Positions 684 to 56,900 of a DNA stretch of 64,000 bases are shown piece after piece. Position 1 is the first letter of the stretch, and every line of letters starts with the position of its first letter. Source of the DNA: Mesostigma viride (taxonomy: Eukaryota > Streptophyta > Mesostigmatophyceae > Mesostigmatales > Mesostigmataceae). The notes under the pieces were generated by a model. That model made no database searches, had not been told where the DNA came from, and saw nothing but the letters and a program-made list of their open reading frames with translations. Made by a program: the position numbers and the translations under genes. The stretch covers positions 12,371,063 to 12,435,062 of the forward strand of contig RPFO01000213.1 of NCBI GenBank assembly GCA_009746045.1, written 5' to 3'.

Positions 684-2079
684 TTGTAGATGGAGTCCCC
701 CCCCTTGCCGGTCCCCGTTGGATCCCCCGTCTGCGCCAGGAAGTCCTTTTGCACGCTGTGGAAAAGGCAGTCGTTGAAGTACTTGATCCTGCCGGTTTGA
801 AGGTGTCGGGTGTATGCATGAAGATGTCCACAGTAAAAAAGTGATGTGTGAGCAGCAGTCAATGACGTGGGCGAGGCAGTCGATGAAGTACTTGACCCTG
901 AGGCCAAGCTGCAGCGAAAACTGAGGCTTCTGGCTGACGTACGTGAACATGTTGATATGAGTGCAATTCATATTCAGGGTTCTCATACACATAGGCGTAT
1001 AGAGTGTGTGACTGGGCTGTAAGCTGGGTTAGCGCCGTTCAACGCCTGCGGTCAAGGCATGTGTGAGGCAGTCAATGAACTACCACATGCTGAGAGCGTG
1101 GTGTAGTGTGTAGCGTGTAGTGTGTAGTGTGTACCGTGTAGTGCACAGGGTCTGGAGGTGGGACCACGCAGCAGGAAAGGGATGGGTGAGCAGCTGTGTG
1201 GAGGAGGCACTACCGTGGAAGAGGCAGGCATTGAAGCATGCAAATGTCAAACGAGCCATGAAAGTGCTCCTCCAGGAAGGCCCTATCGACCCTGCATCCT
1301 TCAAGCCTTCCCCCAGTGCTTCCAAGTTAAATATGTGGGGCATACGTGGCTGCCACAGGGGCATGCTCAGAGACTTCATATTATACATAATTTATGTGTG
1401 TCAAGTCCTGGACGGCGCAAACGCCGCATAAAATCACAGATATATTCGTTGCAGAATCGGCAGATCCCGGAGTAACCCCCGTGGGCATATGCCTATCGCT
1501 GTTTCGGATACACGTGTATTGTTATATTGGTTATCACATAATGTGTGAACCGTGCATGGGCCAAGAGTATACTGAAAAGGAGCAATGAGTGCGGAGACTA
1601 GCTTGAGCATCCGCAGATTACAGATAATAAATATGCATATATATACAGCGGAGTCTTTAAAGCAAGGGTAAATGCCCCAAAGAACTCAAAATCTCCCAGA
1701 CAGGTTTCTCCTCCTCCAAGCCTTGCACATGCACGCACGCGGAGCCCATCCACGATGCAAGCGCAGAAGCAGCCAAGCGGGGACGGCATCCGGCCATACC
1801 AAGAACGCGTGTACGAGTAATACAATCTGCTAAGACTAGGACTCTGAAATACAGGATGCCATCACCACCGTGTGTGCCACATGGAGCAGCGTAAAACAGC
1901 CATTCTTAACTCAGGCACGTTAAAAACGTGAAAAGCTCCCGACGAAAACTTGCTAGGCACATTACGATGAATAAAACTTACTTGCACAGTTTAAGAAAGT
2001 TCTTCGTCGAAAGGGGGCATTCCTGAACGTGTAGGTCGATAACGACGTCTCCTTTGCTGGTCTCGAGAAGGACAGCCAT
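684..2079 (-). CDS. PPIL4: PPIL4/CYP59-type peptidyl-prolyl isomerase, 5' part, runs off the left edge
   Basis: Two exons of a cyclophilin of the PPIL4/CYP59 family, nuclear proline isomerases that in other organisms carry an RRM after the cyclophilin domain. Exon 1 is 2079-1982 and starts with [20 protein letters not shown], the conserved N-terminal strand pair of this family. It ends TGC AA before a GTAAGT donor. Exon 2 is 788-684 after a CAG acceptor. It encodes [20 protein letters not shown] and then [17 protein letters not shown], the family's active-site block, with the conserved FxxQxGD. It ends before GTGGGT. Phases match (2 to 2). The RRM and most of the isomerase domain are not in the window. 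The start ATG is the only one giving the family N-terminus. Identification is by remembered family sequence, and the fit is strong over about 67 residues. Confidence 0.9.
864..1245 (-). repeat. Three decayed copies of PPIL4 exon 2 start inside intron 1
   Basis: The first 30 or so bases of exon 2 (plus-strand image at about 758-795, 'aggcagtcgttgaagtactt') recur in altered form at about 866-900, 1069-1092 and 1213-1243, all within intron 1 and in the same orientation. The first copy still translates to [12 protein letters not shown] against [12 protein letters not shown] in the real exon. The others are more eroded. See the finding on exon-edge copies. Confidence 0.7.
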
Positions 2080-2962
2080 GTTGTTGAGTCGCCCTCTATT
2101 GGGCAGTAACCTCCGAAATCTGTTGTAAAAAAAAACCACTGACAAGATAAACTAAAGAATATTAAGCGATAAATATGATTCCTTCATTTTCAAATACGAT
2201 TGCATTGCAAAAGCCGAACTTCCCTGCAATTATTGCTGAAATCGTGGCACTGCCGACTGGAGACCGGCATCGCCAAATTATTGCAATTGCACAAAAGTGA
2301 ACAACCCGGTGTTGAGCGCTCGCATAAGACCAACCCCGAACATCTTGACCGCGCCGCGCCTTCATGGAGCTCTCCCTGCCTGAGCTGCCCGTAATAAAAT
2401 CATCTCATCCGGCGACCGGCGCTGGATATGACTCGAGGGAGCTGTGTATTTTTTATTGCCTGCATACATACCCAACTCCGAGTTCCGAGGCCGCCGCAGC
2501 CCGCATGCCAGGTGGCTGTTCCCGGACGCCGCAAAATATCTTTTCCCGACTTTATCCATGCTCCCACCTATCGCTGACTGTACCACTGTGGCCGATGGAA
2601 ACGAATGCGCCCACTGCCAACTGCCAAGTTGGACGAGGCCAGGAGTCGCGCGCTAGTACGATGGCCGCGTCTCCAAGCAGTCTTTTCCCCACAACGAAAC
2701 AGAAGCTGCTGACGGAGCTGGTAGCGTGACATTGGGACGGGGTGACACGCTCAGGCATCCATAGCGAACTCGCAAAACCCACATTACAAGATTATACGTG
2801 GAATAATTCGCTAAGAGCTGTTGCTGCGGGAGGGAGGTGATTATCGAAGAGGACTTGTTAGAAACCATAGCGTAATGTGACGCACGAAAAATCTTGCGCG
2901 ATCGAACTGGCTGCCTTTTAAACGAGACGAACACGGCGCCTGTCCCAAATTCATACTACCCG
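2080..2962. promoter_or_regulatory. Shared upstream region between PPIL4 (minus) and the next gene (plus)
   Basis: These 883 bases separate two head-to-head start codons and must hold both 5' UTRs and promoters. I see no clear TATA box or recognised element. AT-rich stretches lie near 2120-2170. The role is inferred from gene orientation only. Confidence 0.4.
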
Positions 2963-53900: not shown

Positions 53901-56900
53901 CAGCTAGCCTCATTATTCATTGCGCGTGTATTGCTGCTCCTGCTAGTCTTTGCTGTACTAACTAGAGCCAGGTGACATGGGCCTTGAGGCAAGAAGGGAG
54001 AGGGATCAGGGAACAGCAATGTTAGAAAGAAGAAGATTACCACAATTTTTTAAATCGAATGCACGAAACCGAGCCATCCTGTAAGACTGCCTCTTAATGA
54101 AGGTTGTATACTCACTCCTGACTTCTCCGTGGAGCACGTCTCCATCACGATTCCATACGCCGGTCACTATAGAGTCTTTACTGTGCTTGGGAGCCCATCC
54201 CACCACTCACTTCTCCACAGAGGATATCTCGGCGAGGATGCGCGGGTTCTTGCTCAGCAGCGCCTCCATGGACCGCTCCGACATGGGCAGCTCCAGGCAC
54301 GCGTAGCTGAAGGGGGGGGGGGGGGGGTAGGGAGTAGGAAGCAGGGCCAGTAGGCATCAACGGAACCAAAAAGTGTCCAGCAGAAATCCATGAATGGAAG
54401 AAGATTGTGGCGTGCATGGCCGGTGGAAAGGCATCCATTATTATGATGCATGCCTGGAGGCAAAGAGCCATGGAATCTAGGCCATGTACCAGCCCCAACA
54501 TATATTGCCACGACCACCCAATCAGGATAAAAAAGAACAACCCTTCCTATGCATTTATTACTAGTTTATTTTGTATTTTCTTTTACATGGCTGCAAAGCA
54601 CCCCATTCAAAATGACCCATGTGTCCATTCCCGACAGCGCAACCGCTCAGGACCAACGTACCCGTTCAGGATGGCCTCTTCGCTGTTGCGCTGCACCTGA
54701 ATCGGCGGGTGTGAGCGGATGGGTGCTGTGACCGCGGAGCCGCCGTTGGGGGTAGCCTCTGTTGCCACAGCCAGCAGCAAGCAGGATGACCATAAAATAA
54801 AATAAATTTAATTTTAATCAATCAAATTAATCACAATCACTTCATCAGTCTGCACAGACCTCTGGCTGGCGCTGTGTGGCCTCGACCGCCTCGTACCTGC
54901 TAACTTGCAGCTGTATGCACGCAAATATGATCCCATATCTAAGCATTTGTTTGTACTCCTTGTACACTTTTTAGAAACGTGGAAATCGGACCCCTCTGCA
55001 CGACCGGGTCGTCCTTGCACATCCTAGTACTACCCAGTAGGATGACTAGAGGGTCTGTCATGCAACCATTCCACAATTCAACCAAGGGGGTTGCCTTGCA
55101 AGGCCGTAGTGGCCTTGCGCATAGGCAGTTAGGCACTGCCCCTTCACAACGCCTCCTCACCTGCCAGCTCGGGCGGCAGCCGCACAGTGACCGCCACGCT
55201 TGCCACTTGCACTGGCATGTGCCCCCCCGCGTGGAAGCTGCGCACGTCCACGTGCAGCTTGAAGCGCATGAAGGGCCCGTCGTCACGCGGTGCTGTCACC
55301 TGCACCCAAACCAATTTAGAGGGTCACTCTACCCTTAAGATTCAGATCCATGTCATTCATTGACTTTAGGTAGCAGCTACCCATCGTCCCGCGGTGCACT
55401 AGAGCCAACACGGAATAGAAAGACCTTTTGGTTGCAGGCAAGACATAACGGGCCAGTCAGCACGTGTGGCCAATTGGCAAAACTAGGTGGCGGGGAATGG
55501 GCAATCGTGCGTTTCAGTGCGCATTCTAGAGAGCTATCCTCAAATCATCGCTAGCTGCCAGTGCCAGGGGGCTGGCCAGAATGGGGCTGGGAGACAGCTG
55601 CCTGTAGATACCACACTTGAATACAAGGTTCTCATGAGGCTGACCTTGAGCCATGGCTTCCATGGGTGTGAGCCCGCGTGGCAGCCAAGCGTTCACGATT
55701 AACCTAGCTCGCCTATCCTCACCATTCCAAGGCCCCTCTCTGGTGGTCACTATTAAATAGCTTCTAAGGACATGGCCCCATTTGCAGTCAAGGGCATATG
55801 TTGAAGACAGGAAGCAGCGTAGCCTATCCTCACCGCTTCAAGCCCCCTCTCCGCTGGCTCTGTGGGGGAAGGAGCGCGGACTGTCTCCTCCTCCTGCCTC
55901 GAATTCACTGCGTCGCCGCCTTCTGCCGGCATGGCGCCCCGATGGCCGTTCTCGCGCAGGAAGTAGGACAGCCTGGGCACAATGCAGGGGGGTAATGCAG
56001 AGAAAGGGCGGGGATGGGATCAGAACAAAATGGGATGCCACTCTCATGAAGGTAGAAGGAAAGAATGTGCGAGGGCACAAAGGGGCAATGCAGGGAAAGG
56101 ATGGCTGCAGGATTCGGAAGATTGTAGGGGGCAGCGGGGGGCGACTGTGGTTACTGTCAAGTACTGGAACCCCATACCAACCTGCCCATCCCATGCAGGT
56201 TGGTATTGATGCAACCTTCACGGGAGAGACCATCCCAGGGACTCCAGGGGACACAGTGACCCGATCCCACAGTTGGGACTGGGAACCAGAGCATTTAAAT
56301 ATTAAGGTACGTACGATCTACGAAGAAACAAAGTGATGCTGCAATAGGTTGCATCTGTGGTCGGGCTGAAAACATGATTGCTAGCAAAATGGGCGGGTGC
56401 CCCAGAATGTCCATAATTTCCAAATTTGAATTACGAGAATTTTAACATGGGAACAGACTAGTATCAGACTTGTGAAGCATCACATAGACCCAAACGTACC
56501 AAAACTCTGCTGGGGACTCAGCTGGCGCATGGTTTCCCCGACCCATCAGCAGCATACACTCCCCTCCTGCTCTCTCCGCTGCACTAAACTGCCTCCCTTT
56601 CCCTTCACATACACCAAACATACCGTATCTCTGCGGGGGACGAGCCGGGTTTCCCCGACCCCATCAGCGGCATCCACTGGGGGGCGGCTGGTGACGCGCG
56701 CAGCGTAAAATGCGCATTTTTACACGCGCCATCAGGCATGCAAGGAAGGGCACAAGGACGGAAAGATATATTCATGAGCGGTAGGTGAAGACTGATGAGG
56801 GGACCCCTTCAGTAGCTTTGCAACAAGCCCTTTTGTGTGTGTGTGTGTGAGTGTGTGTGTGTGTGTGTGTGTCTGTGTGTGTGTGTGTGTGTGTGTGTGT

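Follow-up and report, generated by a model that had tools for sequence, protein, structure and literature searches.

Decayed copies of exon edges in the adjoining introns of genes of the streptophyte alga Mesostigma viride

Do the introns of the streptophyte alga Mesostigma viride carry copies of the edges of their own exons, and if so, how would such copies have arisen? The question was raised by a 64,000-nt stretch of the 439.9-Mb assembly (C1:12371063-12435062, hereafter the window), in which a first-pass annotation had noticed imperfect copies of exon edges in the introns of four genes: PPIL4, an F-box/WD40 gene (FBXW), CBSCBSPB and CEP120. About one fifth of the exon edges in the genes we examined has a decayed copy of itself in the adjoining intron, often together with the splice site. 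These copies are probably the traces of pervasive short tandem duplication combined with selection for an intact protein, and they are best readable where the exon preserves one copy.

Copies of exon edges and their excess

We used gene models covering 36 introns and 72 exon edges from five genes of the window. The models of CBSCBSPB, the CEP120-like gene and the WD40 gene were obtained by spliced alignment of Mesostigma viride proteins to the window and agree with the public proteins at 513/513, 1031/1031 and 485/485 residues, respectively; their exon composites match the eukprot jgi/Mesvir1 proteins Mv00517, Mv00520 and Mv00516. The models of PPIL4 and PsaL are partial and were taken from open reading frames (ORFs) of the window. 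The window is bordered on its left by unknown bases (N; end of locus L009, window position 1), and the PPIL4 model was therefore left incomplete. Up to 40 exon bases at each junction were scored against the adjacent intron; the controls were dinucleotide-shuffled introns, the reverse strand and equal-length chunks sampled from non-adjacent introns. PPIL4 exon 2, whose next exon was not found, was tested at its start only; every other exon named in the first-pass annotation was tested at both edges.

The edge scored higher against its own intron than against every sampled chunk of non-adjacent introns at 22 of the 72 edges, and the shuffle test gave p≤0.01 at 19 of the 72, so that this comparison, of the kind proposed in the annotation, bore out the existence of the copies. 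The top five edges scored 21-29, and shuffled introns averaged about 8-10. The signal was in direct orientation and on the expected side of the exon; as had been described, copies of exon starts lie upstream and copies of exon ends lie downstream. It was lost 30-40 nt into the exon. Exon windows starting 30 nt from the junction matched at 0/30 starts and 1/29 ends, and duplication of whole exons was rejected on these counts.

The detailed list, with a score of at least 12, holds 33 copies at 20 edges, of which 30 reach to within 6 nt of the junction. They lie 54-724 nt from the edge (median 168), in line with the tens to hundreds of bases first reported. Stretches from edge to farthest copy at the 20 edges total 4834 of 27916 intron nt (17%), which supports a share of duplication in intron growth if the whole of each stretch came from duplication.

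Most of the exons named at the outset kept their copies: the start of PPIL4 exon 2, both edges of FBXW exon 2 and the end of its exon 4, CBSCBSPB exons 3, 4, 6, 7, 11 and 12, and in CEP120 the end of exon 3, exon 4 (end 13; start weak, 11.5) and the end of exon 17. CEP120 exon 7 (9.5 and 8.0) and the start of FBXW exon 4 (7) did not. Edges not named before were found in CBSCBSPB exons 5 and 9, CEP120 exons 5 and 11, and FBXW exons 3 (weak, 12) and 5 (13). That each copy includes the splice site proved too strong a statement: the splice dinucleotide was exact in 18 of the 30 near-junction copies (ten donors, eight acceptors) and was not kept in the remainder.

The genes and copies are as follows (window coordinates; fractions are identical bases).

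686-788, minus strand: PPIL4 exon 2 of the partial gene (ORF model, edge test); the copied edge is its start (788)
867-895, minus: PPIL4 exon 2 start, copy 1; 25/29, CTCAG directly before
1207-1236, minus: PPIL4 exon 2 start, copy 2; 24/30
1066-1083, minus: PPIL4 exon 2 start, copy 3; 15/18
7752-13357, minus: WD40 gene Mv00516 (FBXW), 6 exons, identical to P0122
13357-13339, 12557-12392, 12011-11899, 11207-10864, 9441-8900 and 8022-7752, minus: exons of the WD40 gene
12607-12623, minus: FBXW exon 2 start copy; 17/17
12690-12725, minus: FBXW exon 2 start copy; 28/37, CCAG directly before
12295-12326, minus: FBXW exon 2 end copy; 27/32, then GTAAGG
11736-11764, minus: FBXW exon 3 end copy, weak; 23/31
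10389-10418, minus: FBXW exon 4 end copy; 25/30, then GTGAGT, matrix score above the real site
10263-10292, minus: FBXW exon 4 end copy; 23/30, 600-nt shift common to the intron side
10141-10159, minus: FBXW exon 4 end copy; 16/19
9528-9542, minus: FBXW exon 5 start copy; 14/15
16859-29686, plus: CBSCBSPB gene Mv00517, 13 exons, identical to P0001
18867-18909, plus: CBSCBSPB exon 3 start copy; 35/43, CGCAG before, intron side with the same shift within 8 nt
18753-18765, plus: CBSCBSPB exon 3 start copy; 12/13
19842-19863, plus: CBSCBSPB exon 4 start copy; 18/22
20874-20923, plus: CBSCBSPB exon 5 start-region copy; 37/50
21703-21719, plus: CBSCBSPB exon 6 end copy; 16/17
21931-21968, plus: CBSCBSPB exon 6 end copy; 29/39, then GTGTGC
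22004-22043, plus: CBSCBSPB exon 6 end copy, weak; 29/42
22839-22889, plus: CBSCBSPB exon 7 end copy; 43/52, shift common to the intron side
24267-24311, plus: CBSCBSPB exon 9 end copy; 34/45
25754-25973, plus: three copies of the CBSCBSPB exon 11 start (25754-25769, 25827-25847, 25952-25973)
26256-26291, plus: CBSCBSPB exon 11 end copy; 27/36
26608-26639, plus: CBSCBSPB exon 11 end copy, weak; 22/32
28051-28246, plus: 86-nt tandem unit, 2.3 copies, across the CBSCBSPB exon 12 start (28226); exon-start copies at 28054 and 28142
44915-58837, minus: CEP120-like gene Mv00520, 18 exons, identical to P0121
56505-56560, minus: CEP120 exon 3 end copy; 45/57, then GTACGTTTGGG, one shift on both sides within 6 nt
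56034-56063, minus: CEP120 exon 4 start copy, weak; 22/31, shift common to the intron side
55728-55746, minus: CEP120 exon 4 end copy; 16/19, then GTGAGGATAGGC, one shift on both sides
55380-55397, minus: CEP120 exon 5 start copy; 16/18
51001-51042, minus: CEP120 exon 11 end copy; 31/43, then GTGATT
46223-46265, minus: CEP120 exon 17 end copy; 37/43, GTGAGT six bases beyond the nominal junction
45838-45883, minus: CEP120 exon 17 end, second copy, weak; 32/47

In CBSCBSPB, the exact protein alignment makes intron 1 apparently GC-AG (AAG then GCATGT at 17018), and the proteins P0001 and P0002 differ in the inclusion of exon 10 (25315-25422), by eye a PB1 region. Elsewhere in the window, a 39-nt array of 20.8 copies occupies 61728-62537, a 17-nt tandem repeat of ~81 copies runs from 62617 to the window end at 64000, and ORFs on the minus strand at 33573-36091 resemble, by eye, fragments of reverse transcriptase.

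Duplication across junctions and recurrence in other genes

Exon-side and intron-side matches had one shift (within 12 nt) at seven edges, against 0.7 expected and a maximum of 5 in 5000 permutations, and therefore duplications do span junctions. Besides these seven, 11 of the 72 edges had copies of the exon side alone, nine of the intron side alone, two of both without a common shift, and 43 had neither. Head-to-tail units cover exon and intron together at CBSCBSPB exon 12 (86 nt, 2.3 copies) and at intron 5 of the chaperonin gene CCT3 (48 nt, 10.1 copies). The common shifts and the two arrays agree with the tandem duplication across junctions that the annotation had proposed. At most other edges just one to three decayed copies are left. 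In 12 of 16 pairs, two copies of one edge resembled each other beyond the level expected of independent copies, the pattern that serial duplication would leave.

The copies recur elsewhere in the genome, as the annotation would lead one to expect. At 24 loci around WD40 matches (L011-L034), exons with a score of at least 10 were taken from a simple gene finder, which in leave-one-gene-out runs recovered 6/11, 14/16 and 3/4 internal exons exactly, among 17, 19 and 8 predicted exons of any score. Copies scoring at least 16 were found on the right side at 24/266 predicted edges, on the wrong side at 4/266 and in distant sequence at 1/266; this run supersedes an earlier one over 20 loci (18/222 vs 4/222). 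Among 53 copies lying no more than 6 nt from a predicted junction, 25 retained the dinucleotide. Some matches are simple repeats or mispredicted exons, and by eye those at L016, L031 and L033 seem to belong to the former. Applied to the window's first 60 kb, the same pipeline gave 10/82 vs 0/82. Three chaperonin genes were chosen from PF00118 matches, and their exons were assigned against what we take to be the human CCT2, CCT3 and CCT7 sequences. Edges scoring at least 13 numbered 2/14 in CCT2, 3/12 in CCT3 and 2/12 in CCT7 (7/38 in total); six of the seven had p≤0.005 against window sequence, and none of the 38 reached 13 on the reverse strand.

The CCT3 array (L036 4483-4969, contig C1702) starts within the exon and extends into intron 5. 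It presents ten exon ends, the real one included, each reading CCAAG then GT at an exact 48-nt spacing; the ten donors score 8.0-8.2, and the frame is open through the last. We take this array to be a young stage of junction-crossing duplication that precedes decay. The later donors, if used, would add 16-residue repeats to the chaperonin. At L017 7351-7426, the end of an exon predicted by the gene finder has three copies, spaced 40 nt apart, whose donors are identical.

How might such copies arise and persist? The non-coding DNA of Mesostigma would undergo frequent short tandem duplication, with units of ~40 to a few hundred nt that sometimes grow to arrays. A unit straddling an exon-intron junction would give the exon a duplicate edge, complete with a splice site. 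As long as splicing stayed with the edge contiguous with the exon body, the protein would not change and the allele would survive. The surplus copy would become intron and decay neutrally. Selection on the exon would freeze one member of the pair, and old duplications would stay readable after those lying in introns only had blurred. The upstream/downstream rule would then exist because of selection on coding sequence, and edges with exon-side copies alone presumably have the same origin. We give rather little credence to the further idea that Mesostigma tolerates tandem copies of its own junctions as a standing feature, some of them equal in strength to the real site like the ten in-frame CCT3 donors, with a splicing rule that picks the exon-joined copy or uses the others.

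Decay, selection or a preference for exon edges

The copies look neutral by their sequence, and the claim that they decay was supported. The exon dinucleotide beside the junction was retained in 16 of 30 copies, about as often as the splice dinucleotide, so retention does not favour the splice site. Extensions of the exon out to the copy contained an in-frame stop in 22 of 30 cases, consistent with the frequent stops first noted, and one of the 30 was in frame and open. Mismatches fell at codon positions 1, 2 and 3 in 44/328, 52/326 and 74/329 cases, a third-position excess (p=0.003) in keeping with constraint on the exon and none on the copy. The copies carry 26 gap openings, mostly of single bases. 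Coding use of the copies was rejected by codon positions and frames. Copy distances modulo 3 were distributed 4/16/10; the 4/30 divisible by three, against 10 expected, may be chance, as the copies are non-independent.

Several results weigh against duplication followed by purely neutral decay. Identity was 0.80 in the aligned exon parts; 7-12 nt into the intron it had dropped to 0.34 for ends and 0.29 for starts. These ungapped values are background or near it, and reached 0.37 in the best 19. Intron-side similarity had p<0.05 in 11 of 30 copies, far weaker than on the exon side, and in an anchored test matched for GT/AG, 8 of 30 copies exceeded all 25 controls on the intron side. Whole intron segments had z>2 in just 3 (global) or 5 (local) of 28, with 4 longer ones skipped. 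At donors, copies scoring at least 13 were rarer for the first 40 intron nt (4/35) than for the last 40 exon nt (10/35); acceptors showed no such intron-side drop (10/33 and 10/35). The strong copies at the FBXW exon 2 end and the CEP120 exon 17 end have no intron-side similarity past the donor. A neutral simulation (d=0.25, one indel per four substitutions) gave an intron-side identity of 0.38, with a drop similar to that observed, and retained the donor in 0.41 of cases, below the 0.60 observed. The abrupt end of similarity at the splice site had at first been read as selection, a reading mostly undone by the simulation together with the retention of the exon dinucleotide. The whole-segment comparison leaves some doubt on purely neutral decay.

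If selection maintained the copies because they function as alternative or decoy splice sites in the regulation of splicing, the retention of the dinucleotide above the simulated level and the end of similarity near the splice site would follow; five copies score above the real splice site by a matrix whose training set was these same genes, and the ten equal CCT3 donors are in frame and open. We consider this improbable, since the adjoining exon dinucleotide is retained nearly as often, few distances are multiples of three, stops and gaps are frequent, and the two CBSCBSPB proteins, on our reading, differ by exon 10 and contain no copy. The copies are probably not spliced.

Are exon edges a special target? 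When arrays were counted at a score of at least 13, local copies were found in 26.8% of 1342 intron-interior windows (control introns 2.5%), at 19/71 exon edges and, without the distant control, in 120/552 intergenic windows. At the other loci, with a score of at least 16, interiors gave 222/1479 and predicted edges 24/266; random windows there gave 23.0% direct, 5.3% inverted and 3.1% distant matches, or 8.4, 3.6 and 2.1% with arrays masked. These rates were all measured in the Mesostigma genome alone. Interiors thus match or exceed edges when arrays are counted, contrary to the emphasis of the first-pass annotation on exon edges. We expect an edge/interior ratio near one: a frozen exon slows divergence by a factor of about two, but both copies of a duplication within an intron enter the sample. 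With arrays masked, at a score of at least 16, edges led (15/70 vs 63/880), although masking biases the comparison, since it took out 245 interior windows and a single window at an exon edge. This excess goes beyond the frozen-exon expectation, is a further point against our interpretation and is only partly explained by it.

A copying process that prefers exon edges, such as RNA-templated repair in which only the edge and its splice site are copied, would fit the masked excess, the early loss of similarity inside the intron and the 11 edges with exon-side copies alone. It is nonetheless very unlikely, given the seven edges with matched intron-side shifts, the arrays that cross junctions in CBSCBSPB exon 12 and CCT3, the nine edges with intron-side copies alone and the interior rates with arrays counted. 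Chance matches or low-complexity sequence, which the wealth of tandem repeats in the window (75 Tandem Repeats Finder (TRF) rows) and the repeat-like matches at three outside loci might suggest, are refuted for the strong edges by the shuffles, non-adjacent introns and reverse strand, which do not reach such scores, and by the rarity of wrong-side and distant matches.

Relation to known systems

Short tandem duplication with the exon as a fixed partner would leave a visible trace, datable in rough terms, of introns that grow longer by local duplication, not by transposons; old duplications would still be readable because the exon is a frozen reference. The copies also offer natural tests of splice-site choice, for example among the ten equal CCT3 donors 48 nt apart, and they can mislead gene prediction, as in the CCT3 array, inside which the simple gene predictor put two exons. 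Human introns have reportedly also been derived from tandem arrays, by Zhuo and others.

In a literature search of the titles and abstracts of a partial library we found no description of decayed exon-edge copies as a common genomic feature of introns, and the available part of PMC3488318 holds nothing on them. Published work gives a mean intron length of 1141.9 bp for Mesostigma (PMC6947507) and states that transcripts were used in part for one gene set (PMC7027972).

In the intron gain by tandem genomic duplication described in PMC3443670 and PMC2891723, and the subject too of PMC4974935 and PMC2395259, splice sites are copied along with the duplication, as in Mesostigma. That route doubles an exonic AGGT segment, and the stretch between the copies turns into a new intron, whereas in Mesostigma the doubling affects a junction already in place, and an intron already present grows longer. 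Such gain would leave an exon-end copy abutting the acceptor; the nearest copy here, a weak one, lies 40 nt from the acceptor, and the introns are 380-2114 nt long. GT after the exon end is retained in 10 of 17 exon-end copies. Introner elements, a repeated sequence within introns that is copied into many genes (PMC9860276), are likewise repeats inside introns, but each Mesostigma copy resembles the exon beside it, and the other introns tested do not share it: among the sampled introns of five genes, the 22 edges match their own intron above non-adjacent ones. Mutually exclusive exons would show duplication of the whole exon with both splice sites, and matches inside the exon were those 0/30 and 1/29.

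Human segmental-duplication genes come close, in that internal tandem repeats lie across their exon-intron boundaries and change splicing, with 27 intron modifications described (PMC2812944). The human repeats are young, variable and found in recent paralogs, mostly with alternative transcripts, whereas those of Mesostigma are mostly old, low in copy number and decayed. Most likely, then, the mechanism in Mesostigma is of a known kind, and it is the density of the copies that is the surprise.

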